From Mesodorylaimus sp. YZB2_4 (lineage: Eukaryota; Nematoda; Enoplea; Dorylaimida; Dorylaimidae), in NCBI GenBank assembly GCA_030248295.1, contig JASANH010001726.1, forward strand, positions 496,001 to 560,000: DNA of 64,000 nt, given 5' to 3'. Under the pieces are notes generated by a model that saw only the letters and a program-made list of their open reading frames with translations, had not been told where the DNA came from and searched no databases. Every line of letters starts with the position of its first letter. The stretch's first letter is position 1. The position numbers and the translations under genes are program-made. Positions 27,126 to 53,357 of this stretch are shown one piece after another.

Positions 27126-27133
27126 TATAAATA
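27126..27133 (+). promoter_or_regulatory. Possible TATA box of the SLC22-like gene
   Basis: TATAAATA lies 34 bases before the ATG. If used, the 5' leader would be only a few bases long, so it may be fortuitous. Confidence 0.25.
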
Positions 27134-27166
27134 AACCAATCGCTACAAGGGGACTCAAATTTTAGA

Positions 27167-28903
27167 ATGGTGACGAAAACAAAAAAACGCGATCCAAAAA
27201 GGTTTTCTACTGGTGGCCATGAAAAGGATGAAAAAGTGACGGATGTGGACGCTGTATTCAATAAAATTAAACCGTTTGGTCGATACCAATTTTTCGTTTC
27301 GTTTATTTACTCCTACGCCTATTTCCCCCTCGACATCAATAACCTATTCATGGGGTATGGGGGGATCAAGCCGAAATGGACGTGCTCAGATTGGTCAGTG
27401 CACGATAACATATCGACCAGTCCGCTGATTCCCACTGATAACTGCCATATATATCACAAATGTGCACCAGAAAACTTGACTTTCATTTCTGATTTTCACT
27501 CTATTGTTAGCGAATGGGGTCTAGTTTGTGACCGTGATTATTTCATGAGTTTGATCACCAGTATCCAAATGATAGGACTGTTAACAGGTGCCATCATGAT
27601 CGGATCGATCAGTGATCTTTTCGGACGAAAATGGACTTTCTTTACTGTTTTAAGTTTAGAAATGTCTTTGGGTGCCTTGTCGGGTCTTTCAACCAGTGCT
27701 ACAATTTTTGCCATATTCCGATTCTGTATTGGTTGGTGCACAGGGGCGGAAATGGTTGTTGGTTGGGTATTCGCTGCCGAATCGACGACTAATCGATATC
27801 GATTATTGATCAGAGTCGTGGCTGCACTGTTGCTTCCAATGTGGAATCAAGTATTTATTGCCTACTTGACCAGACATTGGAAATGGTACTCGATCATTGG
27901 CAATGTGTCTGGTGTCTTAGCTTTGCCTCTCCTAGCTCTATTTACTTACGAAAGCCCACGTTGGCTGGCTCAAAAAGGTAGAATCGAGGAGGCGCGTCAA
28001 ATATTGGCCTTGATCGCGCGATTCAACCGAAAAAGCCACTCACTGCCCAAAAATATTGATCTGGAGACCGAAACCTCGAAAACGAACGCGGTACAGAAAA
28101 AGTACCACGTGTGGGACTTGTTTCGTACCCGTCAATTGGCCGTGTACACTTTGGTCATGATTGGGACATGGTTCGCTATCAGCCTGGCCCACTATGGAAT
28201 GTTCTTCGATATTGGCAACCTCCCTACCAATGTCTACCTGAATGGGGCTGTGCTGGCTGGTGTGGGCATGCTGGTCATTCCACTGGCTATCTACGATGCT
28301 TACAATCCCAATGTGAACAGGAAGTACATGATGGTCGGCTTGTTCCTACTGACAGCCGTGTGCAACGTGGCAGTAGCCCTGTTCGAGACGGTCATCCCGA
28401 GCGGATCGGTCAGTGGAAGCTTATTGAGCTTGTCGTCAGTAGTGGGTCAAGTGTCCACTGAGGCCAGCTTCGATGTAGCTTACGTGTACGCCGTAGAACT
28501 GTTCCCCACCCTGCTCAGATCAAACGCCAATGGCCTGTCAAGTGTAGCCGCTCGACTGGCGGGAGTTATTGCTCCCCAACTGCTCTACGCCGGCAAATCC
28601 TGGATCCCACTCCCTTACGTCACATTCGCAGTGATCAGTGCACTGGGTGCTGCCATCGACGCCTTCTTCCTGCCCAACACCAAGAACATGCATTTACCAG
28701 AAACATTCGAGCAGTCCAACCATTTGGAAAATATTGCATCGACGAAGGGGTGTGACGGCAACGGTGACGACAGAAAAGCTGAAAATGGCCAGGTCGGCGA
28801 TGCTAGAATACAGTGGATGGCTAGGGACAATACGGCTACCATTGTGTACGATGATGAAGGGCGGCCAAAGAGGCACTCGGACTTCTCAGTGGAACGATAT
28901 TGA
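27167..28903 (+). CDS. SLC22-type organic cation/carnitine transporter (MFS)
   Basis: A single-exon gene of 578 codons with a true ATG. It shows the organic-ion-transporter plan. The N-terminus is cytosolic, then TM1 (FGRYQFFVSFIYSY). A large extracellular loop has several Cys and N-glycosylation sites (residues about 60-125). The MFS signature GSISDLFGRKW is at about residues 145-155 between TM2 and TM3, and ESPRWLAQKGRIEEA at about 262 begins the central cytosolic loop. Six further helices follow, with ELFPTLLR near residue 445. The C-terminal tail is hydrophilic. Length fits SLC22 (about 550). It should move organic cations, carnitine or related solutes across the plasma membrane; the substrate cannot be read from sequence. 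The lack of introns contrasts with its neighbours and could reflect retroposition. Confidence 0.9.
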   Translation: MVTKTKKRDPKRFSTGGHEKDEKVTDVDAVFNKIKPFGRYQFFVSFIYSYAYFPLDINNLFMGYGGIKPKWTCSDWSVHDNISTSPLIPTDNCHIYHKCAPENLTFISDFHSIVSEWGLVCDRDYFMSLITSIQMIGLLTGAIMIGSISDLFGRKWTFFTVLSLEMSLGALSGLSTSATIFAIFRFCIGWCTGAEMVVGWVFAAESTTNRYRLLIRVVAALLLPMWNQVFIAYLTRHWKWYSIIGNVSGVLALPLLALFTYESPRWLAQKGRIEEARQILALIARFNRKSHSLPKNIDLETETSKTNAVQKKYHVWDLFRTRQLAVYTLVMIGTWFAISLAHYGMFFDIGNLPTNVYLNGAVLAGVGMLVIPLAIYDAYNPNVNRKYMMVGLFLLTAVCNVAVALFETVIPSGSVSGSLLSLSSVVGQVSTEASFDVAYVYAVELFPTLLRSNANGLSSVAARLAGVIAPQLLYAGKSWIPLPYVTFAVISALGAAIDAFFLPNTKNMHLPETFEQSNHLENIASTKGCDGNGDDRKAENGQVGDARIQWMARDNTATIVYDDEGRPKRHSDFSVERY

Positions 28904-30231: not shown

Positions 30232-30642
30232 GCCATGCCATGCCATTTGCCATTTGCTCATTTCAAGTGTCTCGGTAACACTCATACTCATCGTGGCACT
30301 GGTCGATCGAGTCAGTCAGACGCATAGCCGACAAAAGACACGCGAAAGCTGAGGAATAAAGTGTGTTCCTAGGTGGTGCATTTCGACCAGACTTTTGCTC
30401 CAGCACTTCTCGGTTTCGGCGACAATCAGCCTGACGACGGAGCCTGTGAGAACCTCGAAAAGCTGATTATGCTAACATCAGATTCCGAATGAGCGCTTCT
30501 GGTAGCATCCTAGTAGAAGGGTCAGCTTTAATGGTCGCGTTCAACGCAATGACAATTCGGTTTTTCTTTACATTTTCAAAAAATTTTTGTGTGCCGGAGC
30601 CCGTTTTGCCTCTAGCCAGCCAACAGTCAAACCTCATAAACA

Positions 30643-31006
30643 GGGCTGAGCGAACAACAGCACACACAGCAGCGTCCCTCTCCGTGTCTCCTCTAGAAGC
30701 ACCTCCACGCGAGGGCGTCCTAGACTGCACACCGACTTCCTCGAACGATGGCTGGTGGGCTGTAAATCCTGTCGGTGTTCGACAGCCGAGACTGGCTCCT
30801 CGTTCGGCTTCCGCCTCTACACTCGGAGCACCTCGACGGTACCGGGTGAGTCGACCACGGCCTGGCGTGCAAGGTCAGCGAGGGTTTATCGTTTATCGTT
30901 CGCAAACCTTCCTCCGTCACAAGGGATCGAACCCGGGACGAGTCCAGCTACTTGCTCCCAAGCAATACGGAGGGACGAAGTGTGAACCGCTGCACCACCG
31001 CGGCGC
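30643..31006 (-). mobile_element. tRNA-derived SINE, family 2, copy 1
   Basis: On the minus strand the head is GCCGCGGTGGTGCAGCGGTT (A-box-like), with B box GGGTTCGATCCC about 70 bases on. The roughly 290-bp body ends near CGCTGCTGTGTGTGCTG. The whole unit is repeated at 35938-36224. The two copies share head, body and tail blocks, so this is a real SINE family, not a stray tRNA. Confidence 0.8.
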
Positions 31007-32123: not shown

Positions 32124-32130
32124 TATAAAA
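32124..32130 (+). promoter_or_regulatory. TATA box of polycysteine precursor gene 1
   Basis: TATAAAA about 100 bases before the ATG, in a CATATAAAAGGG context. The paralogous gene has TATATAAGGG at a similar distance. Confidence 0.6.
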
Positions 32131-32228: not shown

Positions 32229-32934
32229 ATGCATTCGACAAAGATTTTTATTGCTTTCTTCTGCCTGGCCGTGGCCATCGTGTATGCTCGCCCAGCCGAG
32301 CAAGAGCAGACTGAAGGTAAGAATGTGAGGAAATCAAGGAGAACGTTTCGTCTATGCTTGTCCCTGTTCTGTAGAAGCTGTCCTGTCAGTGGAGGCCAGG
32401 GATGTGGATCGTGCCAAGCGATGCAGTTGTGGAGGCGGTGACCACATGGGCGGCTGGGGACGTATCCAACGTGAAGTGGAATCAGCTAACCAAAGGAACA
32501 AACGCTGCATGGGTGGCATGGGCGGCATGGGTGGCATGGGTGGATGGGGTCGTCAAGTGCGTGAATTGCAGTTGGTCGGACGCGCCGACAGCGCTGACTT
32601 CGAGCCCAGCACCGACAAACGTATGGCGCGCATGAAACGTGGATGCTGCTGCTGCTGCAAATGCTGTTGTTGCTGCTGCTGCTGTTGCTGTTGTTGCTGT
32701 TGTTGCTGCTGCAAATGCTGCTGCTGTTGCAAGTGCTGCTGCTGCTGTGGTAAGCGCGCCTTGGCTCAACGTGCAGCCAAGATTGCCAAGGAACAGATGT
32801 TTTTCCAACGCGACGCCGAGGTCAGCCGTCAACAACGCTGCATGAACGGACGCAGTGCCGAGAAGAGAATGAACAAGCGATGCATGGGTGGTGGTATGGG
32901 AGGTGGCATGGGTGGCGGTTGCAAGCGCAACTAG
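32229..32934 (+). CDS. Secreted polycysteine prepropeptide-like protein 1
   Basis: Two exons (32229-32316, 32375-32934; intron 58 bp, GT-AG, phase 1) encode 215 residues. The signal peptide is MHSTKIFIAFFCLAVAIVYA. A propeptide follows, then segments separated by KR sites. These are a CSCGGGDHMGGWGRI peptide, a Met/Gly repeat (MGG x4), and a block of 32 Cys in 35 residues arranged C5-K-C17-K-C5-K-C5. That block begins after KRG and ends in GKR, a classic amidation and cleavage signal. Further pieces (CMNGR, and CMGGGMGGGMGGGC before KRN at the C-terminus) follow. The Cys codons mix TGC and TGT, so the frame looks protein-selected. I know no family with this design. A structural, adhesive or metal-binding secreted product is possible, but function is unknown. 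A paralogue faces it at 36924-37588. Confidence 0.85.
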
Positions 32935-33213
32935 CTTGTCAATTAGTCTTCTTAGCGGTGTGAGTTTCTGTTATGGGTTCATCGTGCGCGTGTTTGCACT
33001 GCCATTTGGAAAATACAATGAGTTGGTTCTAAGATCAGTGCCAATGTGGGTCCAAAGAGCAGGCTGAGAGCAGACAACCACAGCGAGAAAACTGACATAT
33101 ATATCATGTAATGTGCTAAAATTTATTCGATTCAGTAGCGCAACTTGGTACTAGTGAGAGTGCCAGGTACGTGAACCGTGCTCAAAAACTTGTGCCTCGG
33201 AAAGCTGCATTAA

Positions 33214-33219
33214 AATAAA
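33214..33219 (+). terminator. Possible polyadenylation signal of polycysteine gene 1
   Basis: AATAAA occurs 280 bases after the stop codon. No closer canonical signal was seen; assignment is tentative. Confidence 0.3.
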
Positions 33220-33442
33220 ATGCGGAAAAAATTATACAGCCCAAAATGTGGGAGCGCACTGTGTACGGTATATAACCTACATTCGAGACACAACTTGGCT
33301 GAAATGGGGATACGTGATGCCTTCTTTAGATCATCATCACCATGATGCACCCAGTAATATGTCCTGTTGTACTTCGAATCTCGCATGTCATAACGCCAAC
33401 CGCTTGACTTGACAGCCCGCAGAAAATCATTTGCTTCCTTTG

Positions 33443-33850
33443 CTAAATTTTCAAGGTGCGGACTCTGAAGAGCAGCGTCCAGCGTACATTTGTCCCATGC
33501 CAATTAGGCTTCGAATATGGAAACCTACAAAAATTCTTGAAGGACAATGTCGTCTTCCGCGCCTCTTTCCCTGGCCAGATACTCGTATTTTTGTCCAGTG
33601 CGCCTTGTGCAACAGCTAGGAATATGTGTTCGAGCACGAGCCACGGATCAGCTACAGTACCAACCTGAACAGCAATTTGGCCCTGGACACCCTTTGACCC
33701 CAGACTCGCTGAAATGGATGTTTTCCGGCTAGCTATAGCCACGTAGTCTTGCTGCACTTTCAGGAAACTCTGAGAATTCACGTACCTGCAGATAATTACA
33801 GGATTTTTCCAAAGGAACATAATAATCAAAACATATCCCGAAAAACGCAT
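33443..33850 (-). CDS. Unrecognised open frame with hydrophobic N-terminus
   Basis: It starts with ATG and a hydrophobic start (MRFSGYVLIIMFLW), reads 135 codons, and overlaps a second open frame (33503-33210) in another phase. Joining them would need a frameshift or an implausibly small intron. No family motif is recognised. A strong donor-like CAG-GTACGT lies at the end of the hydrophobic stretch, so that part could instead be a first exon. It may be a decayed gene. Confidence 0.2.
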   Translation of the reverse strand: MRFSGYVLIIMFLWKNPVIICRYVNSQSFLKVQQDYVAIASRKTSISASLGSKGVQGQIAVQVGTVADPWLVLEHIFLAVAQGALDKNTSIWPGKEARKTTLSFKNFCRFPYSKPNWHGTNVRWTLLFRVRTLKI

Positions 33851-34273
33851 GCTGTAGTTTATTTCTTACATGTCGCTTCGTCTTTTCCTAGAACATACTT
33901 ATGTTACCGCATATCAAGCGCTTATGCGCACTTCGTACTTTTAAAACACACATTTCACCCGAAATAATTTGCCCGACGGCGAGACGAGCCAACCAATAGC
34001 ATCATCAGGAATTATGGAAAACACATCACAAGGTGAGATCGCAACAATGAAACGAGACCTTACAGTCGAGAGTACACAGGTGATAGGATAGGCAATAGGA
34101 TCGTAGTCTAGATGGAGCATAATTTTGAGAGCGCTCTATGCGCAAGTGTAGTTACTCCTACTGTAACTATCTCATTTTGAGAAAAAATTGCAGTTGACTA
34201 GTTTTTAAGGAAACATCGAAAATACTTTCCTGGTACCTTTTCTGTGCGCACCATATGCCCTCCTATGGCTAGC

Positions 34274-35841
34274 TACGGTTGGTAAAAATACTTGATTTGA
34301 ATGCGCATGCGTATGCGTATACGCAAAGTCTCTCGAATGCGTATGAGTATTGCGTAATACGCAAATTGCGTACTTCACAAAGTATGCATACAAGTTTGCG
34401 TATTGCGTATTTTTTATGGTCGGTTTCTAGCCCCATACAGTAACTAACTATGCATCCGTGGCAAAAATTCAGCGACCATAGCAGCTGCAAGGTCATTTTG
34501 ACATGGCAGTACATTTTGCTGCCGCTTATGGCCAGCTTTAAAAGTCCAACCGGAAAAATTCCTGTCAGCTTCGATCATGGATTCTTTCCGAATACTCTCA
34601 GCTCCCATCCAATCAATGCCTTAATTGCCCAACGCGGTACTTTTCGAAACACTTGTTCAGCACTGGCGGAACATGTCATAGCCACGGTGGCACAAGGTGA
34701 TATTTAGCCATATATAATACAAAAAACCTAGCACAGACTTTGGCTTTGAGGCCGCAGACCTGAATGACTGATAAGTTTCTTTGACATAACATTCTAGTCC
34801 AGCGTTTGGAGGCTTGCAGTGCAGCGGCCACACGCTCACAAAACATTCCTAAGACTCACAAGAAGACTGCTAAGACTTCCCTGATTTCCTGCACAAATTT
34901 TGGATAAGAACACTTACATCAGATACGGATTTTTAAGAATTACAGGGTTTTTAGAATGTCTTCCAGGAATGCTTGCTTAAATTCCTAATCGATTATAAAA
35001 ACAAGTCTTTTTCCAGCATTCAATATTATATACTGCTCTGTATGAACGCAGTTTACTGGCTGCCCGATTGTGTGAAGAAACAGACATATAGGCATTTTCC
35101 TCACACAGTTCGGGAGGATCTTCATTGAGAAACCTCAGAACTCCTAACAAGTGAATCACAGAGAAGAAATTTCGCGGATTTGAATACAAATTCTTTTACC
35201 CGTTCTTCTTGGTCTCCTACGTAATGTACATGATAAATCCTTACGGAGGGGGCTAAATAAATTAGCGTAGTCACAGGATCGCTACAAACTATCATACTCA
35301 CTCCTTACCGTGGACCTAAATAGGGACCACAGCATGCAAAGTTGCACAAAAACCTTCTCTTTATGCTAGAGGCTTTATGAGGCTTTTATGAGAGCTTTAT
35401 GGCGACATGCAGAAGAATCATAAAAGTCAAAACAAGAAGTTTAAGGAGATAGATGTGGTAGAAGGATTATGCACAGTGTGGCAGCTCTTCCATCCACGAG
35501 CAAGCCAGTTTAAACTAGAAATGAGGCATGACTCAAACACGCAGATGCCTTACAAACAATCACTCTGATCATGAGACAAGAAATATGGACTAATAAGAGG
35601 ATGTGAGCACATTGTCTCTATCTCTCGTCGTCATTGTTTCGAAAAAATTCGCGGCTTTTTATGATTTATTTCAAGCTGCTTTTATCGGCATACGCATTGG
35701 ATGTATTGCGTACAAGCCAGTTTGCGTATGCGTACATGCGTACATCGGTTAGAATGCGTATGCGTTTGCGTATACGCATCCAAATTCTAATGCGTAATAC
35801 GCAAACATTGCCAATGCGTATTTTGTACGCAACCAACTGTA
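34274..35841. mobile_element. 1.57-kb hAT-like element with GCGTAT-array ends
   Basis: Inverted ends TACGGTTGGT (left) and ACCAACTGTA (right) enclose dense TGCGTATGCGTATACGCA arrays at 34303-34410 and 35685-35835. Flanks TGGCTAGC (34266-34273) and TGGCCAGC (35842-35849) match at 7 of 8, an hAT-size target duplication. No transposase frame is present, so it would need a helper. It lies between the two polycysteine genes. Confidence 0.7.
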
Positions 35842-35937
35842 TGGCCAGCAGCTTTTTTTATTAAAATTGTTTTTGACGGAAGCCCATTTTTCCCTATAGT
35901 CCGTCAGCAATCATACCTTGAAAAAAAGACTGAGCGA

Positions 35938-36224
35938 GGATCAGCACACACAGCAGCGTCCCTTTCCTCGGACGATGGCGAGTGAACTGTGAACCCTGTC
36001 GGTGTTGGACAGCTAAGACTGTCTACTCTTTTGGCTTCCGTCTCTCCATTCGGAGCACCTCGTCGGTACCGGGTGAGTCACCCACGGCCTGGGGGGGGGG
36101 GAGGATGGTTTATGGTTTGCAAAACGACCGCCATCACCGGGGATCGAACCCGGGACGAGTCCAGCCACTAGCTCCCAAGCAATACAAAGAGACAAATGCC
36201 GAACCGCTGCACCACCGCGGCCGC
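35938..36224 (-). mobile_element. tRNA-derived SINE, family 2, copy 2
   Basis: Same organisation as the copy at 30643-31006: GCGGTGGTGCAGCGGTTC head, B box CGGGTTCGATCCCC (complement near 36140-36153), and a body with GGTGCTCCGAATGGAG. A G run interrupts the body near 36092. Confidence 0.8.
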
Positions 36225-36923
36225 TTATGTACAGGTAGCAGCTACTGTTAGAAATTTTTTATTTTCGGTTCGATTCCAACTAGAAATTTTTCCAACTTGA
36301 AACAATTTTATGAGATTAGTTGAAACGCGCTTCACAAATATTTTTCGTGAAAGAATTTGTTCCTTCATGCTCACATTCCCAAAGACCGACAGATGGTCAT
36401 TTTACTACATCTATTTAAACAATAAAATTTCCGAATCAGCTAGGATCGATAGCTAGACTCACAAGTCTTACGGCCACCTTGTAAGGAGGACTTAGTTGAG
36501 TATTTGTATTTTACATAGTGACATCTAGAATGCACCTTAGATTCAAGAGTGCCATAATGTATCTCTTTACCAGTTCCTATGCCTTCAGCTTCTAGTTCTC
36601 CTCTTTGTTATTATCGTGCAATATGCCTTTATGCATATACTGCATATTCTTTGCCAATATAACAAGCCCTCTTTCTTGCTTTATCCAGGTCGATAATTCA
36701 GTCTCGCCGCTGTGCTCGTCAATGAAACCATCGCTCGCACTATTGACTTACAACCTAGCGAGAAGGACGGGCGGAGGCACTGAATGCCTTTCAAATGCAG
36801 CCAAACACAATGAACCATATCGTGCTGTATATTTGGGACTCTCAAGCACCAGACTCACAAACACGAGCACCCAACTCTAATATGTATAACCTATTCCAAG
36901 CACAAAGGACCCTACTGGCCAAA

Positions 36924-37588
36924 CTAATTACGCTTACAACCGCCACCCATGCCACCTCCCATACCACCACCCATGCATCGCTTGGTCATTCTCTTCTCGG
37001 CGCTGCGTCCGTTCATGCAGCGTTGTTGACGGCTGACCTCGGCGTCGCGTTGGAAAAACATTTGTTGTTTGACGATCTTGGCGGCGCGCTCTGCCAGGGC
37101 ACGCTTACCGCAGCAGCAGCAGCACTTGCAGCAACAACAACAGCAGCAGCAACAGCAGCAACAGCAGCAGCAGCAGCAGCAACAGCAACAGCACTTGCAG
37201 CAGCAGCAGCACCCGCGCTTGGTGCGGGCCATGCGCTTATCGGTGCTGGGCTCGAACACTGCGCTGTCGGCGCGACCGAGCAACTGCAATTCACGTTTGC
37301 CATTCATGCATCGCTTGCTGCGTTGGCTAGATTCCACTTGGCGCTGGATGCGTCCCCAGCCGCCCATGTGATCGCCTCCCCCGCAGCTGCATCGCTTGGC
37401 ACGGTCCACATCCTTAGCTTCCACTGAGACGGCGGCAGCTTCTGTAGAAAGGGAAATTGACATGACAGACCCAATTTCTATTCCATGCTTTTCTCACCTT
37501 CAGTTTGTTCTTGATCGGCTGGTCGAGCATAGGCCAAGGCAGCCACAGCCAGGCAGAAGAAAGCAACTAAACATTTGGTCGAGTGCAT
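36924..37588 (-). CDS. Secreted polycysteine prepropeptide-like protein 2
   Basis: Two exons (37588-37498, 37441-36924; 56-bp intron at the same place and phase as gene 1) encode 202 residues. The signal peptide is MHSTKCLVAFFCLAVAALAYA. The layout matches gene 1: CSCGGGDHMGGWGRI, then CMNGKR in place of the MGG repeat, then a block of 32 Cys in 34 residues (C5-K-C22-K-C5) between KRG and GKR. A conserved linker (MFFQRDAEVSRQQRCMNGR) and CMGGGMGGGMGGGCKRN end the protein. Cys codons again mix TGC and TGT in different order from gene 1, so the two blocks diverged silently while staying Cys. The gene is convergent with gene 1. Probably a recent duplication; function unknown. Confidence 0.85.
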
Positions 37589-37675: not shown

Positions 37676-37684
37676 CCTTATATA
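37676..37684 (-). promoter_or_regulatory. TATA box of polycysteine precursor gene 2
   Basis: CTATATAAGG on the minus strand about 90 bases before the ATG, matching the position of the TATA box in gene 1. Confidence 0.6.
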
Positions 37685-38057: not shown

Positions 38058-39647
38058 CAGAGGTCGGGCCAATAGTGTCATGCATGTGCTCTCAACTTCA
38101 TTGTGTGGTGTAAACCCATGTGCAATTTTTATTTGCGATTGCTCAAACTGAGAATTGTAATTATCTGGCCTCACTGTCTGTATTGCAGTGCACAATCGAT
38201 TTCACTGCTTGCCTAAATCAAATAAAAGTTGGATGGACTAAGCATCGACTGCATGCTGTAACACGTTACAGACCAGCAGCCTGGATTTACAGAAAACCTG
38301 TTGGCCAAAGGAGTAGGTTGTAAAGATTGCAAAAACGGGCAAGTCTGCCCGACCTGGTCTTTGGCTGAAGTATTACTGTATTTTGGATGGCCTCTCTAAA
38401 TGCGGCTTCTTGAAGATGATCGTCTGTCTGTCGAGCCAGCATGTCCAGATGCCTGTCGATGGCAAGATATACATAAATAGGATGCAATAGTTGCCTCAGC
38501 ATGCGAAAAAAGCACCCTCCTGGAGCGACGAGGATGGATTAGAAAACCTGCAACACATGCTATGCATAGCTTTATACAAAATTTCTCTTAATAATTAGGC
38601 CTTCTTCGTCAAGGTCGTGCGCCCTACTCGTTTTAGACTCCATGTTGGCTGGTCAAAGCAAAGAAGTATAGCATAGCATATAGCATGTTTTCTAATCCAT
38701 CCTCGTCGCTCCAGGAGGTGCTTTTTTCGCATTCTGAGGCCACTATTGAATCCTATTTATGTATATCTTGCCATCGACAGGCATCCGGAATGGACGCAAC
38801 AGGAGACCCTCTGCGATGTCGGTGCCAAGCTTCTTCCCCTGTGGGGGTGGGCTGATTCGAGAGCCACGCACCCCATGAGTTTATCGCTTTGTAAGAATAA
38901 AGGGTTCAGTCCCACCCGCGGCATGCCAGGAGCTCACTTGACGGCTGTGACTTGATCCCAAGCTGATCGGTTTTCAGGTCTGCTGAGCAAACTGTAGGAC
39001 TTTTCATCGAGGCAAGTGTCACGAGTGCAAGACGTGGGCATGCTGACCCGACAGACAGACAGACGATCATCTTCAAGAAGCTGCATTTGGGGTGGCCATC
39101 CAAAATACAGTAATACTTCAGCCAAAGACCAGGTCGGGCAGATTTGCCTTTTTGGCAATCTTTACAACCAAATGACACGCAAATTCGTGAAGCGTTCCAA
39201 ATTTTACCGGCGTGGCCTGGTGGGTTAGGCGTCTGCCTCTCACACCAGGTGCGCAGTTACGGGCGAGTGTTCGACTCGCGGGCCGGTAAATCATATTGTG
39301 TAAAATGTGTCCCTTCACCCTCCAGTGCGCATAAGCGTTTGGTGATGTGATAAAACATGAACATGATGATGATGATAATGAACAACCTACTCCTTTGGCC
39401 AACAGGTTTTCTGTAAATCCAGGCTGCTGGTCTGTAACGTGTTACAGCATGCAGTCCATGTTTAGTCAATCCAACTTTTATTTGATTTAGGCAATCAGTG
39501 AAATCGATAGTGCAGTCTGCAATACAAACAGTGAGGCCAGATGATTACAATTCTCAATTTGAGCAATCGCAAATAAAAATTGCACATGGGTTTACACCAC
39601 GCAATGAAGTAGAGAGCACGTGCATGACACTATTGGGCCGACCTCTG
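38058..39647. mobile_element. 1.6-kb foldback (long inverted repeat) element
   Basis: The left arm, about 38058-38545, is repeated inverted in three blocks: 39390-39647, about 39036-39169 and 38692-38790. The matches cover GGTTTACACC, AACACGTTACAG, CCAAAGACCAGGTCGGGCA and CTAATCCATCCTCGTCGCTCC. Two insertions break the right arm: a SINE (39170-39387) and an unidentified 245-bp piece (about 38791-39035). No coding capacity is seen. Its right end overlaps the final codons of the adjacent GPCR. Confidence 0.85.
39170..39387 (+). mobile_element. tRNA-derived SINE, family 1, with empty site
   Basis: The head has A box TGGCCTGGTGGGTTAGG and B box GTGTTCGACTC; the body is CCCTTCACCCTCCAGTGCGC; the tail is (ATG)n. 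ACAACC flanks it at 39164-39169 and 39382-39387. The uninterrupted sequence (GCAATCTTTACAACCTACTCC) survives in the opposite arm near 38320, which proves insertion. About 36 bases of extra sequence precede the tRNA head. Confidence 0.88.
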
Positions 39648-40697
39648 ACTAGCAACTGTTACAGCCACCCCACTGGCTACTTGGGCATTTGCTGCCCATC
39701 GTTTCAAGCATGGAGTTGATTCGTATATCATCTGACGGAAATTCTTGCTCAGCGCAAAAACGACATAGAAATCACAAATATCAAAAATTTCTAACGCTGC
39801 ATCGACTAAAGATCCAAAAAAATGACTACGACAGTCATAGAATGTTGGAGAGGCGTAGACAGCTACATAATATGAGCTGAGAACAACCATCGACAAAAAG
39901 TTAAACAATGATTCAAAAACTGCTAAAAGCAAAAGAACTTTTTGTTGATCTTCTTGTCTTTTCTTAGCTTCGTTTGTTTTTGTTGCTTTCATCTGACCGA
40001 CTTTCTTGACATGACGTTGATACATTGTCACCATGATCACATTGGATGCGATTAGAGACAAGGCTCCAACCAAACGTATAGCATTGCGCAAGTGGGACAG
40101 AGAAGCTGCTGTCAAACTGCTCGTATATTCTTCATCTACCGCGAGATGGTACAAGTTTTTTTCACCTAATTGAGGGAAGAAACGAAAGCAATCAAAAATG
40201 CTGCTACTTATTGCCACAAAAGAACAAATGGCGCAGGCGATTGCTTGGTGCTTTCTATGATTGATTTGTTTGTAGGAGAAAGGTTTTCCTAAAGCGAAGA
40301 TTCGATCGACAGCGGCGGCCAGAGCCATTAGCACTGATAAACTGATAAACATATTGACCAGAGGAAATGCAATGTGTGCAGCGAACCACATGCAAGCGTA
40401 GCTTGATCTAAACCAAACAACGCCATCCCGACCCTCTGCTCCTGAGAACCAATAAAACGTGACCACAAGGAGAGCGTAGGTGATCACCTCGATGGTCTCG
40501 GTCACAGTTACAATAATTTGGTAACCAAAAGCTGCTTCTTCTTTGGCTTTTTTACAGAATGCCACAAAACACAAGGAGTAGCCGCAGAGGCCAAATACGA
40601 AGTGCATTGGCATGATGACATAGTAGGCCATGAACGCAGCTACATCTCCAGCCGAGTGAGACCACGCGCAAACGTCGCTGATCGTTGAATTGGTCAT
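39630..40697 (-). CDS. Rhodopsin-like G-protein-coupled receptor
   Basis: An intronless gene of 355 codons with a true ATG. Seven hydrophobic helices are visible. After a short glycosylatable N-terminus (NST), TM1 is VIMPMHFVFGLCGYSLCFVA. TM3 ends ALAAAVDRIFALGKP, a DRF variant of the DRY motif. A basic third loop (QMKATKTNEAKKRQED) precedes TM6, and after TM7 comes an amphipathic ALSKNFRQMIYE segment. TM7 lacks a clear NPxxY (EIFDICDFYVVF). It resembles peptide or orphan receptors of invertebrates; the ligand is unknown. The last five codons and the stop lie inside the right end of the foldback element at 38058-39647. Confidence 0.8.
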   Translation of the reverse strand: MTNSTISDVCAWSHSAGDVAAFMAYYVIMPMHFVFGLCGYSLCFVAFCKKAKEEAAFGYQIIVTVTETIEVITYALLVVTFYWFSGAEGRDGVVWFRSSYACMWFAAHIAFPLVNMFISLSVLMALAAAVDRIFALGKPFSYKQINHRKHQAIACAICSFVAISSSIFDCFRFFPQLGEKNLYHLAVDEEYTSSLTAASLSHLRNAIRLVGALSLIASNVIMVTMYQRHVKKVGQMKATKTNEAKKRQEDQQKVLLLLAVFESLFNFLSMVVLSSYYVAVYASPTFYDCRSHFFGSLVDAALEIFDICDFYVVFALSKNFRQMIYESTPCLKRWAANAQVASGVAVTVASQRSAQ

Positions 40698-41455
40698 TGC
40701 TGGGCCTGGACCTTACAACGGCACTGTGATCTATGGTTGCCGATCTTGGAATTTAAAAGGTAGAAGGCTAGCTGGCGCAAGAAACATAGTTAATTAATCC
40801 AAGCTTCTCTAATTTCCGTTTGCACTGTTGGTTTTCGCTGGTCTACTTTTACATGAATGTTGCTCTTTATTCATATTTCCTGAGAGTCTTGCTGGGCAGG
40901 TTTCCTGGGATAATGCCTGGGGTCTCTCTGAAACGGCAGGAGGTAAGGATTCATACCTACTTTTAGTCTAATTATGGGATTCCTCGCATCTATTGCTCGG
41001 TGCTTGCTGATTTTTAATAAGGTCTTGAGAGCCTGGTGAGCAAGACTAATGAAAGAAGCTTACCAAAGTTTCAAAAGTTTGAAAGTTATAGCTCATTATG
41101 CGTTTCCTGCTGCCCGAATAAGGCCATCTGATTGTGGATTTTGACAAAGAGTAATGTTTGAGTGGATAGCAGTGCCAAACTGAACCGATATGAAATCAAT
41201 TGATATCACTATCATGCTCAAACAGGCCAAGTGCTTGTCTGTCCTCAAGTTCATATATGCTGGACAACAGCTAATGACTTATATTTCTGATAGCCATAGC
41301 AGCACTACAATGATCGTATTCGTAGGTACACACATTCAGGCACACAGCTAACCTGCAGACCAGTTTATAACCAGTACATTTGCATAACCTGCAAGACATA
41401 TATTATTTATATGCTCGCATTATGCATATTGAAATCGTCAGACATCCATAACCAC
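40698..41455. other. Intergenic, nothing recognised
   Basis: Upstream region of the GPCR and downstream region of the receptor subunit; AT-rich, with no supported feature. Confidence 0.4.
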
Positions 41456-41675: not shown

Positions 41676-44586
41676 TCATATCGTAAGCAGTCCAACCCAA
41701 AGGAAGGCATAGACCAGTGATAATAGGAGAAATATTATCCTGTCTAAAGCAATAACTACGCAGAGCCAATGCCTCGTACCTTCCACTCGCTCACTGGTAT
41801 TTGATTGTCCTCGGCGACGACTGCTTCCATTTGATGAATTCTGTCGTTGAGGCTGTTGCAGATGAAAACTTTCATTCGGCGATGAATGCCTCGGCGAAGC
41901 CCTCGCCGTAAATTCTGAATCTTCGGCAAAAGAGGCTTGTGGTGTTCTTTTAGTTGCTCCCATCTGGTTAGTAATCACTATGGCATGCCTCAGATTTTGA
42001 TGACGTCTAGATCTGCTTGACGACGAATGTGAACCGAAATCGCACCATTGAGTTTCCAGTTGATCAGGTGACAGGCAGCAAAATATTTTGATGAATTTAT
42101 TCCTCAGAAGATTTAGTAATTGAGGAGGTACGTGAGTTTTGCGCTCTGATAAAGAGTTGGTGAATAATGCGATTATCAGCGAGGTGAGAGAGATAAAAAG
42201 GTTTGTGATGCAAAGAATAACTAAAAATATAGAAATCAATAGTTGCGAAAGGATTGGGAAATATATTTATCATAAAGTACAGTAAATACATAATAATCTG
42301 TTATGCATTAGAAATGGAAATAGAGACCCCAAACAGGAACTGATCCAACCTCTCCAGATTACTGTTCACCTTTTTCCGTTTTCTACTCATCAAACAACAT
42401 ACCGTAATACACTACATATTGAAGAATATCTGGAGAATACCTTGGAGAAATATTATCTCAAATGGATCCAAGGTGGAGAAATTATTTGAGGGGAAAATGA
42501 AAATGTGCAACACATTTTGATATCAGTTAATAAATTTTTTTATTCCATAAATCTGCGCGGGCACCTTTGCAAGCACATGCGAATCCCTCAATGAGCATAT
42601 CCTACGGTACCTCCTTCATTCTTGAAAGCCAAAAAATGGCAAGCTGCCCATGGAGTGGGCACGTACAGTATAGGTATCCCGTAGCCAGGGCCTTTGAGGG
42701 GGAGAATCATTAAATCCAACGGGTCCGAGTAAGGGAAACTCAAAAACTGGGTGATGGGGAAGCTAAATGAGTACAATATTTACAGCTTGGACAGCCTCGT
42801 CTGCCTTGACCTCGTGACAGTGCCACGATAGGGGCTTGGGCTAGTGCAAATGTTGCTCAGGTCTAAAAACTTAGATATATTTATCAGATAACATCAAAGC
42901 TTAGCTGGTCTAGAAGATACATACGAAAAAATGGACTACATTTAGACCGTGTTTTTTGGCACTAGCAGGTAGAATCTTACCAGTGCGAGGCATTCCATTG
43001 AATACCATGGGTGGTAGTCGAGAAAACATAGCTAACATGTGAATAACCTCCAGAAATAAAGCAGCAAGAATCAATATTATTTTCCAGGAACCCTTTCTTG
43101 TAAGGGTGAATAAAAAGGCAACAGTCGTCATAATGGCCGTTATTATAGCAGGTATAAGAATGAATTGCCTGACAAAAACAGGCTGTCTTTCAATGGTGAA
43201 TAAAATGTTGATATAATGCCATTTTTCTGTTTCAAAAGTAAGTTCTGATAGAAGTAAAGAGACATTTGTTATTTTCCAGTTGGTGTTGTACAGCCTATGA
43301 CTGTCCCTGTAAATCAGAGATGGGTTGTTGGCTAAATTTGAGCTCAGATGCCATTTGAGTTCTTGCGTACGATACGCCCACGAACCCAGTGCAACAGTGC
43401 ACGTCTGCGTGTCCCACGGATAGCGTGCATAGTCGAATTCACAAAAGGCGTTCAAACTGATTGGAGGATCGATGACTACTCGACCATCTTTGTAAACGTG
43501 CGCTAAAGTGTTGGAACTGACCAAAGTGTCCATTTTTGATTCGGCACTAAAAACATTTTTGATGTTCACCTAGTTTTTAAACTTCTTTTTAAAATTGCTT
43601 TATTGTAACTGCTAGTCATTGCTTACTTGTTGTACAAGTGTAAATCTGGTCGCCATACAAAATGTTGAGGTATGACGATTTTAGAAATAGCGTTGCTGAA
43701 TTCTGTGCTCGAATTCCACGCTAGACGCTCGTCGTACCATTGCTAAAATGAATCGAGTGACCGAGATCCTTCTTGGAGGAAGTTAAGTTAAAGAGTTGTT
43801 GCCAGCTTAAATGCTGTGCATGCTTTGCATGCTGTGAGTGAGGACAGAACATGAGAGCATGTTTTCATAGCCCAAATGAAAACGGGGATTCATGCCGTAC
43901 CCTAGCGTCTTCTAGTGGTTTCTAGGTCAACTGCTCGCCCACTATTTCAGTGAAGTAAAAGGCTTACTTGAATCCCCCTGTGAAACCGAGCTGAACATGC
44001 AAAATATCTCTCTAAGATGCCTAACTTTTTAGTCTTTCTTTTAGAGCTAAAGCTACTACTTTGCAACGACAAAAGATCAAACCCATCGTGTAAGCTAGAT
44101 TGCAACTTTGCGTGACTTACCAGTATGACCCATCCGTGCAAATCTATAGTTTGATGATCTTCATCCTGAAATATAGAGCGAGATAGATTTGTGAAACAGT
44201 CACAATCATTAGATTTATTTACCACATCGCCCAAATGCGTGACGATCATAGAAAAATTACACATGACTTCGCTCGACGTTCCAGCCAACGGTCTAACATG
44301 TCGATTATAAGATTGCATAATTTGCAAATGGAGACCATGATAAGTATTATAATTTATTTCTTTAGTTGCTCCATGAATTTCATGGTCGCTGCTCACCTCG
44401 TCTTCCCTTTGCACTCGACGATTCATATCTTCATCTTGCGAATCTCCATACTCCCCTAAAAATTTACTCTTTTATGGCATCAGCGATTCGAAAAAAATCT
44501 ACAAATTTACCTGAGGCGAAAGAAATAGAAAGCAATAATAGTGACAAAAATGTCCCGAAATACAAATTATGTTCTCCCGCTGGCAT
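41676..44586 (-). CDS. Nicotinic acetylcholine receptor-like subunit (non-alpha)
   Basis: Six exons (44586-44511, 44455-44223, 44165-44121, 43742-43627, 43546-42981, 42220-41676) join in frame to 526 residues. A signal peptide (FLSLLLLSISFAS) is followed by the extracellular ligand domain (WYDERLAW, VWRPDLHLYN). The Cys loop, C192 to C206, has 13 residues between, including YPWD. M1 is about 283-305 (FILIPAIITAIMTTVAFLF), M2 about 312-330 and M3 about 346-365. A long Ser/Arg/Gln-rich cytosolic loop precedes the final M4 (DRIIFLLLSLVYAFLW). Loop C has no vicinal Cys pair, so it is a non-alpha type. Before M2 the usual GEK is GSWK, so the acidic ring residue is absent. It would form cation-type pentamers with other subunits at the plasma membrane, but ion selectivity is uncertain. 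Confidence 0.92.
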
Positions 44587-47731: not shown

Positions 47732-49525
47732 TTAACCGCTTCTTTCCGCAACTTTGGCGCCGTCAGCTGGATGAAATATCGGACTCGCACCATGAGTGCT
47801 TATGTTGCGATTGACTAAACGCATGCCACGGGTGGGCCCAAGGAATTGGACGTATTGTGTTGTAGACGACGTCGCAGTAGACATCATTGGCCCCGCACCC
47901 CCATTTGAAGACTCACCACCACGCTCGATGCGACAAGGCGATCGCCAGAAAGCAGACCGACTGCAGTCGAAAACTTTGAATGCCGTTCTGTAATTCTTCG
48001 GCTGCAACCAACTGCTAGCCAATACCTCGGTTACTGTGGGACGTTCCTTCGGTTTCTTTTGCAACATACACCTTATCAGCAAGCACGCCTCAAGAGACAC
48101 CCTGTCACGAACTGAATTCAACGCGATTCGGCCCTCCCTAATTTTAGCAAATAATCCTGCCGGGGTCGAATCATAAAATGGATAGCGGCCGACCAGCATC
48201 ACAAACAAGAGGACACCCAAACTCCACACATCTGCTGCTTTTCCTGAATAGTTTCTTTTGCTCAAGTCTAGAATTTCTGGACTCACATAAGCCGGGCATC
48301 CATGGCGGCTTTGCATTGTGTCATCTTCGACGTCGAAATCATTGTAGGTGATCGAGTTCGGATCAGCGACCGCTGAAATTTCGGGGCAAAAGGCCGTATC
48401 GTCCAAATCTTCCAGTTTCAATGTTTGTCGACGCGCGTCAGCAAAAACGAACTTTCGCAGCTTCAAATCCCGAATAACCACATTTCTCAAGTGACAAAAT
48501 TCGACTATCTGACAAATCTGCTGAAAATATTCCTTGCATTGGGTTTCTGGTAACTTCCTTCTTTCGATGACATAAGCGTGAAAGCAGCCGTAATTAGGTG
48601 GTTCGATCCAATAAAAATACAACTTTGTGCACTTTTCTTCTTTTTCGCGATGTAAAACAAAAGTTGTATTTTTTGGAAATAAAAGCTCATAAATTTCTTT
48701 AAATTGTTCTGTATCGCCTATTATCAAAGATAGACGACAGGCCAGCCGCGTGCGATGCATGTGTTTCGCGCGATCGAATCGACGGACGGTGACAAATCTG
48801 CCGGTAAGTAAGTCGAGGCCGTCATAAACGCGCGCATTCTGATCGACCTCCTTCAAAAGTTGGACGTCACCTATTTGTGGGAGGTCCAGATCGAAGGGGT
48901 CGTCAGGATATTTTTGATGCTCCATCAAATCGATTTTTATGGGGGAACGCGGCGGCGTGGTATCTGAGATGGTCAAATGCCCTTGGATCAGGCTTCTTTG
49001 TGGACCAGGCGGAAGCAAAGCAGCGATCCAAGGGTTCAAACGTTCCACCTGCGTGATCGAAGGTTGATGGGCGGGTGCGAGAACAGGGGCGGGAGAGAGA
49101 GCAGGAACCACTGCTAGAGCATCTTGATCATTATTTGGTCTGTGATCGATTTCATTTTCTTGTATACTTTGATCTTGATTACCTGGAGCCGAACTTTGGT
49201 CATTTCCACCACTTTGTATTTCAATCGCCTGATTGTGACCGCTTTGGCTGGTTTGAGACCAGGTTTGATGGCTGATTTCAATCAGATCAGCTTGATCGTC
49301 TGACACCGTCATTGAGCTTATATTGTTCTCACTTGAGCTTCTTATCAGAATTGAATTTGCTGCAGTAGCATTTCGATTCACACTCGACCCTGTTGAACAT
49401 TCTCCAAAACTTATTTTACTTCCAGCAGGAATTAAACTCATTGTACTTGAGTTAGATCTTCTGCGTTTGATCGCATTTGCGCAATTCGTGTCGTCAAATT
49501 GACGTTTCTGTGGCGAATGAGTCAT
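47732..49525 (-). CDS. trib: Tribbles-family pseudokinase
   Basis: An intronless gene of 597 codons from the first ATG (MTHSPQKRQ). Tribbles proteins are scaffolds that bring COP1-type ubiquitin ligases and MAPK kinases to their targets. A long Ser/Asn/Gln-rich N-terminal region (about 1-215) precedes the kinase-like domain (about 220-510). The normal beta-3 Lys is Arg (FVTVRRFD, about 244). The catalytic loop is the Tribbles form VVIRDLKLRKFVF (about 350), and the metal site DFG is replaced by LEDLDD. HGCPAYVSPEI (about 407), GKAADVWSLGVLLFVMLVGR and FAKIREGRI are diagnostic. No clear C-terminal COP1-binding or HPWF-type MEK motif is seen; the tail is Ser/Thr-rich. About 600 residues is long for the family (350-480). 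Confidence 0.93.
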   Translation of the reverse strand: MTHSPQKRQFDDTNCANAIKRRRSNSSTMSLIPAGSKISFGECSTGSSVNRNATAANSILIRSSSENNISSMTVSDDQADLIEISHQTWSQTSQSGHNQAIEIQSGGNDQSSAPGNQDQSIQENEIDHRPNNDQDALAVVPALSPAPVLAPAHQPSITQVERLNPWIAALLPPGPQRSLIQGHLTISDTTPPRSPIKIDLMEHQKYPDDPFDLDLPQIGDVQLLKEVDQNARVYDGLDLLTGRFVTVRRFDRAKHMHRTRLACRLSLIIGDTEQFKEIYELLFPKNTTFVLHREKEEKCTKLYFYWIEPPNYGCFHAYVIERRKLPETQCKEYFQQICQIVEFCHLRNVVIRDLKLRKFVFADARRQTLKLEDLDDTAFCPEISAVADPNSITYNDFDVEDDTMQSRHGCPAYVSPEILDLSKRNYSGKAADVWSLGVLLFVMLVGRYPFYDSTPAGLFAKIREGRIALNSVRDRVSLEACLLIRCMLQKKPKERPTVTEVLASSWLQPKNYRTAFKVFDCSRSAFWRSPCRIERGGESSNGGAGPMMSTATSSTTQYVQFLGPTRGMRLVNRNISTHGASPIFHPADGAKVAERSG

Positions 49526-51799
49526 CTTCAATGGCAACTGCACTGAAGTCAAGGACTAGTTGCGGTTGGAGCACTAGTATAAAGCTTGAAACTTCACAGC
49601 CAAGGTTCGACCTAAGGGCAGATCTGCTAAGCGCCAAATGAGGTAGAATTTTTATATTGACCCTTTTATCTTCGTTTTAATCGCAAGAATGACGCAAAAA
49701 TGCACTTAAAGTGGGTGCTAAAGTTACGCTACGGCGCGTCACCGTGTATGCACAACATCTCGCCCACGACTGACTCACTGTGACGCTGCTCTTCGCGCCT
49801 GTCGGTACTGGCTCTTTTTGTTTGCTCAAGCCAATCGCGCAATAACTTGGCAGCTAAAAAGATATACTCTGGGTAACCAATTTCGACGAACATGGTGTGA
49901 AATAACAAAAACCAGGGCGGTTTTATTTTAGGTTTACGCTGAAGTGAAAACTCGAAATAATTAGCAATTATAAATTGGTCACATATCTCTATGCTGACTC
50001 GATATTGCCGACTTGCGAGTTCCTGTTCACTATTTTTCTTCGCATAAAAAGGGCAGACTGATAAAGAAAATATTGCGCGACTCGAACGCCAGTTTTACGA
50101 CATGACGCACTTAGGATAGGTTTCGCGATGGTGTGTGCGAGGTCTTATAACGACATGGCATACTGTACTCATTTTTACCTCCTTTCGTTGTAAGCATTTG
50201 CTTTGAACTGTTTCTTAAATTATTTCCTTTCTCGAGGCAATCTGTTTCTGGTGTCAGAAGCGGTAATCGCTGTTCGTTTTGTGAGGAACTTCAAAGTTTC
50301 CATCACATTTTTCATCCAAGTTCTTCAAAGAACCAATGCTTTATTCATAAAAGATTTGACCGCAGAGCAACATCTGATTTTAAACATGGGACCCTGCTAA
50401 TGCGGGCCTAAAATTTCACTGCTCCTGACGTCGGTCTTATCAAAAGCAGCCAATCTGTCTCTGCAGTTCGGCATCCACTGTTATCAAAAGTTGCGAGCGA
50501 GTCTTCTACGCTATGTTAAAAAATTCCTTAACAGCAAACACTCGTAGGTACTCGTTAAAAACATTTAGTCACTCGAACGATCTCGTATCTTTTTGGGGCT
50601 GAGTAAGGCGAAAACTTGGTTCAAAGAACTGCTTGTGTTCGGCTATGCACCAGGAGATTCAGTGCACTCCTGAAGATTCCTACGCAGAATGCTAGTCACA
50701 TATTTCACATCGCCGTAGTTGATGGGAATGTTGATGTGAGATTTCTATCGCGCGATCATTCTAGACGTGATTAGTGGAAAATCGGGAGCAATATTCAAAG
50801 ACCAATTGAAAGCAAATTTTTGCTGGAATATTCGAGCACATGCTACGCTGTAGTTGTGCGTCATCTAAGCTAGGGGAGTCGATTAGGCGAGTAAGGTCTT
50901 CATCCGCTCTTTTTACCACACCTCAAGGAGCTGCTCATGTCATCAGCACGTGCCGTCCAGAGAGAAAGTCAACAGGAGGTAAGCTTTGTCCAGACGGTAA
51001 GCCTATCCGTGTCCTGTGTGCTGTGCTCCTATGTCTTCCGTAATCATAATACATAAAAGTCGAGCATGATCGAGCATGTGATCTGAAAGAGGTGCACCCT
51101 CGCGAGACAATGAAAAAGTATAGTTTTTGCGCCCACCCAGAATTAAAATATTCACCATTCTAGTCTGCAGGGGCCTTTCTTGAAAGCTCAAATATTTTCA
51201 TGATTCATAACTAACAGAGCAAACTTGAGTATCTGTCACAGAGTTCTGAAATCAGGTTTTACTTGCCACTTTTAATTATCCTAAACATCGGATTCGAAAA
51301 TTTTTCTGCTGTCGTGACTCTCTCTCTTGTAGCTGGTATTTTCACTAGAATAAGCAAGTATAATTCAGAAAAATATTTACGCAGACATTAAGGGACTCGT
51401 TTCGTCATTGGCTTCCTCTGATGACATTGAAGGGCAAGACGAAGAATGCTCACATCAGTGTGTGAGACACAAGCGACTGGACTAGTCTAATTATGATTCA
51501 GTCGGAAAACCTGTCAGTTGGAGTATTTGCTCCAGAAGTATTTGGGGGCTGACGCAGAGGGAAACATAGGTCGTACTCAGCCAGGCATTTGCGCAATCGC
51601 ATAACAGGAAGAGGTGGTAACTTGTGCTTCCCGAAAGTCATTAAAACCGCTAATTCACAGGCTCACGTACGAAGCAGTCGTTTTTGTCGATAGATAAAAG
51701 CAGCAAAAGCATCACCCATGGGTAGCAAAGAGACAATGGCACTACAGAGTTTTCTCCTGCCATGCTTCCTTCTTTCTTTCATTTTTCCTCTCTTCAACT
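49526..51799. other. Intergenic region, nothing recognised
   Basis: Upstream of Tribbles and downstream of the next GPCR. No exon, repeat family or RNA gene supported. Confidence 0.45.
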
Positions 51800-53357
51800 T
51801 TATGGAATCTGTTCGCTTTTTTCTCCACATGGCCCAAGGCTGAGAGCGTCGAAGGATGAATAGCATCTCGTTTCATGCATGGACAGAGCACCATGACATC
51901 GATTAGCTGATGCTGGTACTGATGTTACGGCTGATGAGCTAACGAGTCCCACGCGCATGCCATTCATCGCTACTGTGCTGCCCGGAGCATCGTTCTCTGA
52001 CACCGAGAAGCGTCGTGGTGTCGAGCATGTAAGACCTTGTCGAAGTGTTCTGGGCACAAACAAGGATACAAAGGTGGCTCGAAATCGCGAACTCATGCCA
52101 CAATATCTGAAAAAGCAATAATATTAGTCTAGAACAATGGTTTACATCCTATTGCACTTACAAAACAAAGTTGACACCGCTGTTTAGAAGGGAAAGCAAG
52201 TCCAGCACATCGCCGAGGGTTGGGTAGACCTTGAAATATACATCGCTCAGATAAAATCCGCTCATTGTGGCCACAAATGCTTGTGGTAATTCAGCCACCA
52301 GAAAAATGGAGAGTATGGTCAATAACATTTTTGTAGTACGGCTACTAAAATATTTTGCACGTCCATGATTTGCCACCGCACCATTTCGAGCAGTGGTGCC
52401 GTTTCGACGCCGTAAAATACGCGTACTCCGCCTTTTCGCTGCGGCTAGTGTCTTCAACAGACGCCAAATACTGAAGAATAGGAGGAGACACGGCAATAAT
52501 TTGAAACAAAGGCCGTTTATTAGAAGTACAGCTCGTAGAAGAAGACAATCATTGGCCAAGGCCGATTCGGATGGCAGAACTGTATATCCAACGGATGTCG
52601 GCAGTCTGGCTCCCACTATAAGCTCTGATCCTGGTCCAGACCCGCCTCCGATTACAGCATCCAAGGCTTCCGCGCTGATATTACGGGGCGTTCGGTTATC
52701 ACCGCACGACTCCACTTCGATCTGCACTACGCTGTGCGTGAATATGACTGGTATGCACAAAATAGCCAAGAGGCCGTAGATGTAGGACAATGGTCTCCAG
52801 ACGTGGCCTGGTTTGAGCGAAGTGTTATTCAATTTCGCCTTTCTCATTACTCTTAGGCGCATAAATGCTAACAATACTACTAACCATAAGCTACTGCTAT
52901 GAAGTAGAATACTCCACAAGGAATGGAACAAAATGAACACCATCCATCCATACGTATAAATCTCTGCGAGACATACCCCTCGGTTGACCACGTAGAAATG
53001 TACCACATAGATCAAATAGGAGCACATTGTTCCAGCATCGCACAAAGCCACGGCAGCCAAGACCACATTAATCGATGTCCTCATATTTGGTCTTGTCAAA
53101 ACAATAAAATTTAAAACATTGGTCAAGAGACCGAATGCGCACAAGACCAGGCACACGTGGCCGTGGATAGGCTGATATTGACGAGAAAATTCTTCTAGAG
53201 ATGTCAAAAGTTTTCGGTTCCATTTTTTCCATTCCAAGCCCGAGTCTTCATTAATTTCTTTGCCGTCTGTCCAATTACCATCCACATTCGAATATTGGGG
53301 GAGATGTACCGGGCCAGCATAGAACCAGCTATCGGCACTGTTCCCGCACAGGTCCAT
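51800..53357 (-). CDS. FMRFamide/myosuppressin-type GPCR
   Basis: Two exons (53357-52162, 52106-51800; 55-bp GT-AG intron, phase 2) give 500 residues if ATG at 53357 (MDLCGNSADSW) is the start. A TTTCGCAG acceptor-like site just before it leaves room for an upstream exon. The extracellular N-terminus has NWT sites. TM1 includes LVLCAFGLLTNVLNFIVLTR, TM2 VVLAAVALCDAGTM, and TM3 starts at a Cys (CLAEIYTY). TM4 follows HVWRPLSYIYGLL. TM6 is KMLLTILSIFLVAELPQAF. TM7 continues over the splice as LLNSGVNFVLYCGMSSRFR. The NxxNFVLYC-MS-FR end and VLNFIVLTRPNM start resemble myosuppressin/FMRFamide receptors of invertebrates. A Thr/Ser-rich cytosolic tail follows. Ligand assignment is by motif only. 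Confidence 0.82.

Follow-up and report, generated by a model that had tools for sequence, protein, structure and literature searches.

Predicted secreted polycysteine prepropeptides form a gene family of at least 29 loci in a dorylaimid nematode

Two convergent genes with a block of almost uninterrupted cysteine residues lie in the 64,000-nucleotide stretch of DNA analysed here (the window; positions 496,001 to 560,000 of contig JASANH010001726.1, assembly GCA_030248295.1) from the nematode Mesodorylaimus sp. YZB2_4. The original prediction, which had described these genes, gene 1 and gene 2, as paralogues with a signal peptide, dibasic sites and an amidation-type GKR, was borne out, and the same design proved common to 29 loci of the genome. 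The predicted block of 32 Cys in 34-35 residues, starting after KRG and ending in GKR, was likewise recovered, with 35 residues in gene 1 and 34 in gene 2. As judged from the sequences, this family is real, strongly selected and unusual.

The gene family and its processing sites

The window and the family searches belong to one assembly of 145 Mb in 1067 contigs. Loci were found by searching the genome with gene 1 DNA, gene 1 protein and three divergent members, and the fetched stretches were read in six frames. In this way 29 loci were counted, a number which is a lower bound. Class A comprises 19 genes resembling the window pair and class B two genes (contigs C118 and C9). Three longer genes on contig C46 form class C and carry, in a row, the peptides R-CSGGGWG-KR, R-CSGGGDWG-KR, R-CAGGNWG-KR and R-CMGGGGGGSWG-KR. 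Class D corresponds to three genes on contig C2, the blocks of which are made of Cys-Ser/Gly/His or of alternating Cys-Gly, and class F to one gene on contig C164 with an 89-residue block of CCDCCK repeats. Class E, a single gene also on contig C2, is rich in R-CCG peptides and has an uninterrupted run of 31 Cys; upstream of it (L054, 1843-2457) there is a frame with ALPECTSSDDCGSGCCVFKG... and more R-CCG peptides, and the gene probably extends beyond the part counted.

The search with the gene 1 protein recovered class F at 8.5e-21 and D1 at 1.5e-7. A motif lying immediately 5' of the block and itself outside it, KRM-[ASH]-R-[TM]-KR, is present in 21/29 loci (18/19 of class A, B1, D1 and F); among the 29 loci checked, it was not found in A11, B2, class C, D2, D3 and E. 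We are less sure of classes C and E, which appear to be tied to class A mainly through the low-complexity block. Several members exhibit an inverted neighbour arrangement (contigs C41, C247, C109, C174 and C46).

At all 29 loci, [KR]R stands in front of the block, and Gly with a basic residue behind it. In classes A, B, C and F a Gly comes between [KR]R and the block, and the Gly at the other end is continued by a basic pair or by KY in 29/29. The block measures 24-89 residues, with spacing and length that vary among classes, and the longest consecutive Cys run of the family is 41. Cys accounts for a median of 21% of the open reading frame (ORF; 29 ORFs). Most of the small peptides start with Cys directly behind a basic site: outside the blocks, 119/218 Cys directly follow Arg, a residue that represents 10.5% of the total, the 218 taking in some Cys of an upstream reading not proven coding. 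Peptides of the form R-C...G-[K]R include CMNG, CMSG, CMQG and C...GGWG. Gly stands before the K/R sites of small peptides in many genes of classes A-C, and none is listed for E, D2 and D3. The combination expected of an amidated-neuropeptide precursor, a signal peptide followed by several peptides between basic sites, was found in the family (leader in 28/29, by hydropathy only). Additionally, 25 segments of the genome match PF01082 (copper type II ascorbate-dependent monooxygenase), a domain of the amidation type. These segments are spread over many contigs (C57:301092-318226, C341, C273, C292, C455), some with internal stops, and perhaps reflect an expansion of amidation-type enzymes.

Codon usage and selection in and around the cysteine block

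In 25 members (classes A, B, C and E), the blocks are written with 884 codons, namely 559 TGC, 288 TGT, 32 AAG and 5 AAA, and with none other (847 TGY and 37 AAR when pooled). A Cys run that is variable and frame-shifted like a CTG microsatellite, the outcome named beforehand as contrary to the prediction, was not observed: across paralogues the length varies, the frame is kept and 884/884 codons are TGY or AAR. Eight blocks of equal length present 19 variable columns, all of them at the third codon position. In the same way, the differences between A15 and A16 (17), between A13 and A14 (19) and between C1 and C2 (1) fall in third positions only. The pattern is not fully this simple, as the equal-length blocks of A3 and A10 show differences at the first two codon positions as well, Lys being placed differently in them. 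The constraint on the block is not absolute either, considering that the D3 block has acquired one Tyr, one Glu and one Ala. In four paralogues of classes D and F, the same slot holds (CCDCCK)n, (CG)n or CC-Ser/Gly/His.

The flanks of the block were compared among the 19 class A genes. The pooled ratio of nonsynonymous to synonymous substitution (dN/dS) is 0.036 for the 28 codons before the block and 0.133 for the 44 codons after it, and no flank is interrupted by a stop in the true frame (0/19). Over 171 pairs the median dS is 0.80, and dN/dS reaches 1 or more in 0/171. Between gene 1 and its paralogue on contig C59, the flank codons give a dS of 0.59 with a dN of 0. The flanks and the block codons together make it very probable that these are real genes under protein-level selection, and they show that the Cys run does not drift as a CTG microsatellite would.

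An ordinary CTG/CAG microsatellite within a gene or pseudogene, of which the other frame (antisense poly-Gln) would be the real one, could account for part of these data. TGC/TGT changes are silent also in the antisense Gln and sense Leu frames, and the antisense frame of the flanks yields pooled dN/dS values of 0.108 and 0.248. At 10/14 non-family loci fetched elsewhere in the genome (L026, L028, L036-L040, L042, L043 and L045), the longest ORF that contains the CAG tract encodes poly-Gln; among the other four CAG/CTG loci, L041 shows no ORF of this kind, L044 is related to L043 but shorter, the poly-Gln ORF of L046 lies opposite a longer poly-Leu one and L047 has a longer poly-Ser ORF. However, the antisense frame is broken by stops in 3/19 and 12/19 flanks, compared to 0/19 in the Cys frame, and in D2 the antisense Gln frame contains a stop within the block, although it is open in D1 and F. 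In the Cys frame of class D, Ser is encoded by AGC, AGT, TCG, TCT or TCA, and each of the four GGN codons is used for Gly. The leader, the TATA match and the splice sites also agree with the Cys strand. A microsatellite of this kind is, in our opinion, extremely improbable.

Promoter, leader and intron, and coordinates in the window

A TATA match is found 69-109 nt 5' of the leader ATG in 27/29 loci (19/19 of class A, B1, D1 and F, C1-C3 at -77, D2 at -96 and D3 at -71), a count that does not amount to 27 independent trials since the family members are related. As a control, 41-nt stretches of the window contain such a match in 400/18274 cases (2.2%). A leader-like peptide was recognised in 28/29 loci, by hydropathy or by eye and not with SignalP. 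Splice modelling covered classes A and B and predicts in both a phase-1 intron behind the leader. The top model is of phase 1 in 21/21 genes and is trusted in 19/21; those of A4 (not the leader exon) and A11 (damaged) are distrusted. The predicted introns measure 50-88 nt in 17/19 trusted genes, the two others being of 257 nt (A3) and 155 nt (A15).

The layout of the window pair is given in Table 1. The stops of gene 1 and gene 2 are about 4 kb apart. Among the small peptides that had been predicted, CSCGGG... and CMGGGMGGGMGGGC are common to both genes; CMNGKR was confirmed for gene 2 and not for gene 1, which has CMGGMGGMGGMGGWGR in that slot.

Table 1. Features of the two polycysteine genes, in positions of the window
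Feature	Position	Strand	Remark
TATA box, gene 1	32124..32129	+	105 nt 5' of ATG
Gene 1 exon 1, ATG 32229: signal peptide MHSTKIFIAFFCLAVAIVYA, then RPAEQEQTE	32229..32316	+	hydropathy, not SignalP
Gene 1 intron, GT-AG, 58 nt, phase 1	32317..32374	+	predicted splice model
Gene 1 exon 2: peptide-bearing region and stop (TAG)	32375..32934	+	
CSCGGGDHMGGWG peptide, gene 1, flanked by KR and R, putative W-amide	32422..32460	+	
Gene 1 poly-Cys block: 32 Cys and 3 Lys (35 residues), KRG before, GKR after	32644..32748	+	
CMNG peptide, gene 1, R on both sides	32839..32850	+	
CMGGGMGGGMGGGC, gene 1, KR on both sides	32881..32922	+	
Gene 2 exon 2	36924..37441	-	
Gene 2 poly-Cys block: 32 Cys and 2 Lys (34 residues), KRG before, GKR after	37110..37211	-	
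Gene 2 intron, GT-AG, 56 nt, phase 1	37442..37497	-	predicted splice model
Gene 2 exon 1, ATG 37588: signal peptide MHSTKCLVAFFCLAVAALAYA	37498..37588	-	hydropathy, not SignalP
TATA box, gene 2	37679..37684	-	96 nt 5' of ATG

Elsewhere in the window, we noted on the plus strand a fragment of a MULE-type transposase (14718-15569) and a transporter of the MFS sugar/organic-cation type in a single open frame of 590 codons (27131-28900). On the minus strand there are a rhodopsin/Srx-like receptor with both scores slightly under the cut-offs (39633-40712), the ligand-binding domain of a neurotransmitter-gated channel (42913-43569), a protein-kinase-like ORF with Tribbles pseudokinases as best PDB matches (47735-49555) and a Srw-type seven-transmembrane receptor (52161-53432). 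A dispersed repeat of about 170-270 bases, with copies 77-86% identical, occurs at 30621-31004 and 35901-36260 and also in L053 and L057; that it is a short interspersed element is a guess. In the genome as a whole, the N-terminal domain of nematode cuticle collagen gives 133 matches, compared to 0/14 control genomes with any (prokaryotes where listed), in agreement with a nematode source. The exact sequence of the SL1 spliced leader gives 0 matches and thus lends no support to a chromadorean ancestry; features of 18S and COX1 would rather suggest Enoplea, and the COX1 chains nearest in the PDB were of no help in placing the species. COX1 is represented by fifteen segments (contigs C73, C273, C741, C47 and others; L029-L031), several with TAA/TAG stops, and so these would be either mitochondrial DNA copied into the nucleus or a piece of the mitochondrial genome that was joined into contig C73.

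Possible functions and comparison with known families

For the function of the family we give an even chance to a crosslinking mechanism, in which thiol peptides would build a disulfide network. A proprotein convertase and a carboxypeptidase would cut the precursor at its basic sites in a secretory gland, and a peptidylglycine monooxygenase would amidate the exposed Gly. The cuts would release one-thiol peptides (CMN-amide and CSGGGW-amide), two-thiol peptides (CMGGGMGGGMGGGC and CGGGGGGC-H) and poly-thiol peptides (poly-Cys, (CCDCCK)n and (CG)n). The thiols would be kept reduced in a storage granule and, after secretion, would oxidise into an insoluble network, with poly-Cys as nodes, the two-Cys Gly/Met peptides as flexible linkers and the one-Cys amides as ends. 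The product is likely a cuticle, egg-coat, plug or adhesive material. In this scheme we infer cleavage, amidation and transcription from the gene sequences.

The main rival of the disulfide network is metal binding: the products would be secreted or granule-lumen binders, by which Cu(I), Zn, Cd or As is held in a gland, the cuticle or the gut so as to store, detoxify or deliver it. The way Cys is spaced in classes D and F (Cys-x-Cys, CCxCC) and the His/Met-rich CSCGGGDDHHMGMGGMGGGW and CMGGGMGGGMGGGC of class A speak for such binders, as does a Cys-rich secreted protein of the nematode Trichinella that is reported to bind Fe, Ni and Zn (PMC2954182). Nevertheless, one-Cys amidated peptides would be poor chelators, the block spacing differs between classes and 0 metallothionein models of Pfam were matched, and we consider metal binding rather unlikely. 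We prefer the network by a modest margin, because what is conserved is Cys density, not geometry, and because the block occurs together with one-Cys peptides. A Cys density that is kept when pattern and length drift would fit a network better than it fits a fixed metal site.

The same genes could also be read as precursors of peptide hormones or neuropeptides, in which the putatively amidated Cys-Gly-Trp and CMN peptides signal and the poly-Cys block would serve for packaging or as a spacer. Class C, with its four R-C..W-G-KR peptides in tandem (CSGGGW, CSGGGDW, CAGGNW and CMGGGGGGSW), has the classic multi-peptide layout, and the amidation-type domain is present in the genome. However, A15-A19, D1-D3 and E present no C...W-G peptide, the block is present in 29/29, though the loci were recognised by it, and nineteen similar copies are, as generally understood, unusual for a hormone. 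Signalling by the W-amides of class C is possible; as an account of the family, signalling seems improbable to us. Lower still we place secreted defensive or host-directed Cys-rich peptides, a very improbable role. The products are predicted to be secreted, multicopy and Cys-dense, and parasites exist among nematodes; however, class A is under strong purifying selection with no sign of diversification there, and there is no spaced-Cys pattern giving a fixed fold.

A number of observations weigh against the reading of the family as precursors of a disulfide network. The presence of the block in 29/29 loci is partly circular, as the block was used to find and to recognise them, and any relatives without a block would have been missed. 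No TATA match was found in B2 or E, nor any start or leader in class E. Class F is without intron and runs from leader to stop in one frame, and the predicted intron of A6 is itself open. The class A gene A11 (L048, C49:426661-427185) has an in-frame TGA in exon 2 and an altered C-terminal end, and this copy is probably decaying. Four further class A genes, A16-A19 (the pairs on contigs C109 and C174), are without Gly in one slot (CSTQKR or CSAQKR), and amidation is therefore impossible in that slot. The Met, His and Cys-x-Cys content suits copper equally, and the amidation signals look more like those of signalling peptides than of a matrix. Finally, the family was read from the genes of a single species, and it is from these that we infer crosslinking.

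In its strongest form, the disulfide-network reading would describe a new biological material: ribosomal precursors of the prohormone type would yield a defined set of peptides with one, two or many thiols, near-pure Cys homopolymers among them, that polymerise outside the cell, the gene sequence setting the crosslink density. We put this forward tentatively, as somewhat doubtful. The family may be a lead to a new disulfide glue or metal-binding polymer, and it makes testable how a secretory cell folds, stores and releases a pure-thiol peptide without premature oxidation.

That no described family has this design, as originally predicted, held within the searches made (Pfam, NCBIfam, PDB, viral contigs and literature). 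Seven representative proteins and 20 members of alignment A2 matched 0 Pfam families, with no match to a metallothionein profile. For 8 proteins NCBIfam gave a single match, to class F, with 16.5 bits (cut-off 1700), which was taken as noise, and the PDB profile search gave no relative. A scan of viral contigs with the family alignment returned 600 pattern matches, none of them a relative. The literature search for poly-Cys prepropeptides, with subscription papers mostly outside its scope and eukaryotic protein collections not covered, found no such family described. Precursors of this type are known, and a family built on near-pure Cys peptides is new as far as checked.

The nematode neuropeptide-like (NLP/FLP) precursors share with the present family a signal peptide, small peptides between basic sites and Gly as amidation donor; we know of no NLP/FLP precursor with homopolymeric Cys or with a set of Cys-initial peptides. 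Short Cys-dense repeats (CC-Ser, Cys-Gly) in disulfide-linked material are found, as here, in the ultra-high-sulfur keratin-associated proteins, the sperm protein SMCP and the Drosophila Mst CGP proteins. These proteins differ from the present ones in being intracellular and without prohormone-type processing and, to our knowledge, none has 30-40 consecutive Cys. Metallothioneins and phytochelatins bind soft metals with the Cys-x-Cys, CCxCC and Cys-Gly patterns shared here, but they are cytosolic or enzymatically made, without a secretory precursor.

Among nematode proteins, Ts-PCHTP, the poly-cysteine and histidine-tailed protein of Trichinella, was compared (PMC2954182). It resembles the present family in its signal peptide on exon 1, its many Cys and its proposed metal binding. 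Its 36 Cys (8.8%) are spaced in a long fixed motif and it ends in a 7-His tail, whereas the present blocks are Cys-dense, with basic sites on both sides, in ORFs of median 21% Cys. The Ts-PCHTP spaced-Cys consensus given there, used as a regular expression, matched 0/29 ORFs, and a C-terminal poly-His tail of this type was not found in the 29 ORFs, the longest His run being 2. More generally, poly-Cys is reported not to exist among the tandem repeats found in the proteins of mammals (PMC3523016). Cys is also reported not to tolerate repeats in human and to stay low in the various proteomes examined (PMC5125637). The present family, which is under selection and has runs of as many as 41 Cys, breaks this rule.

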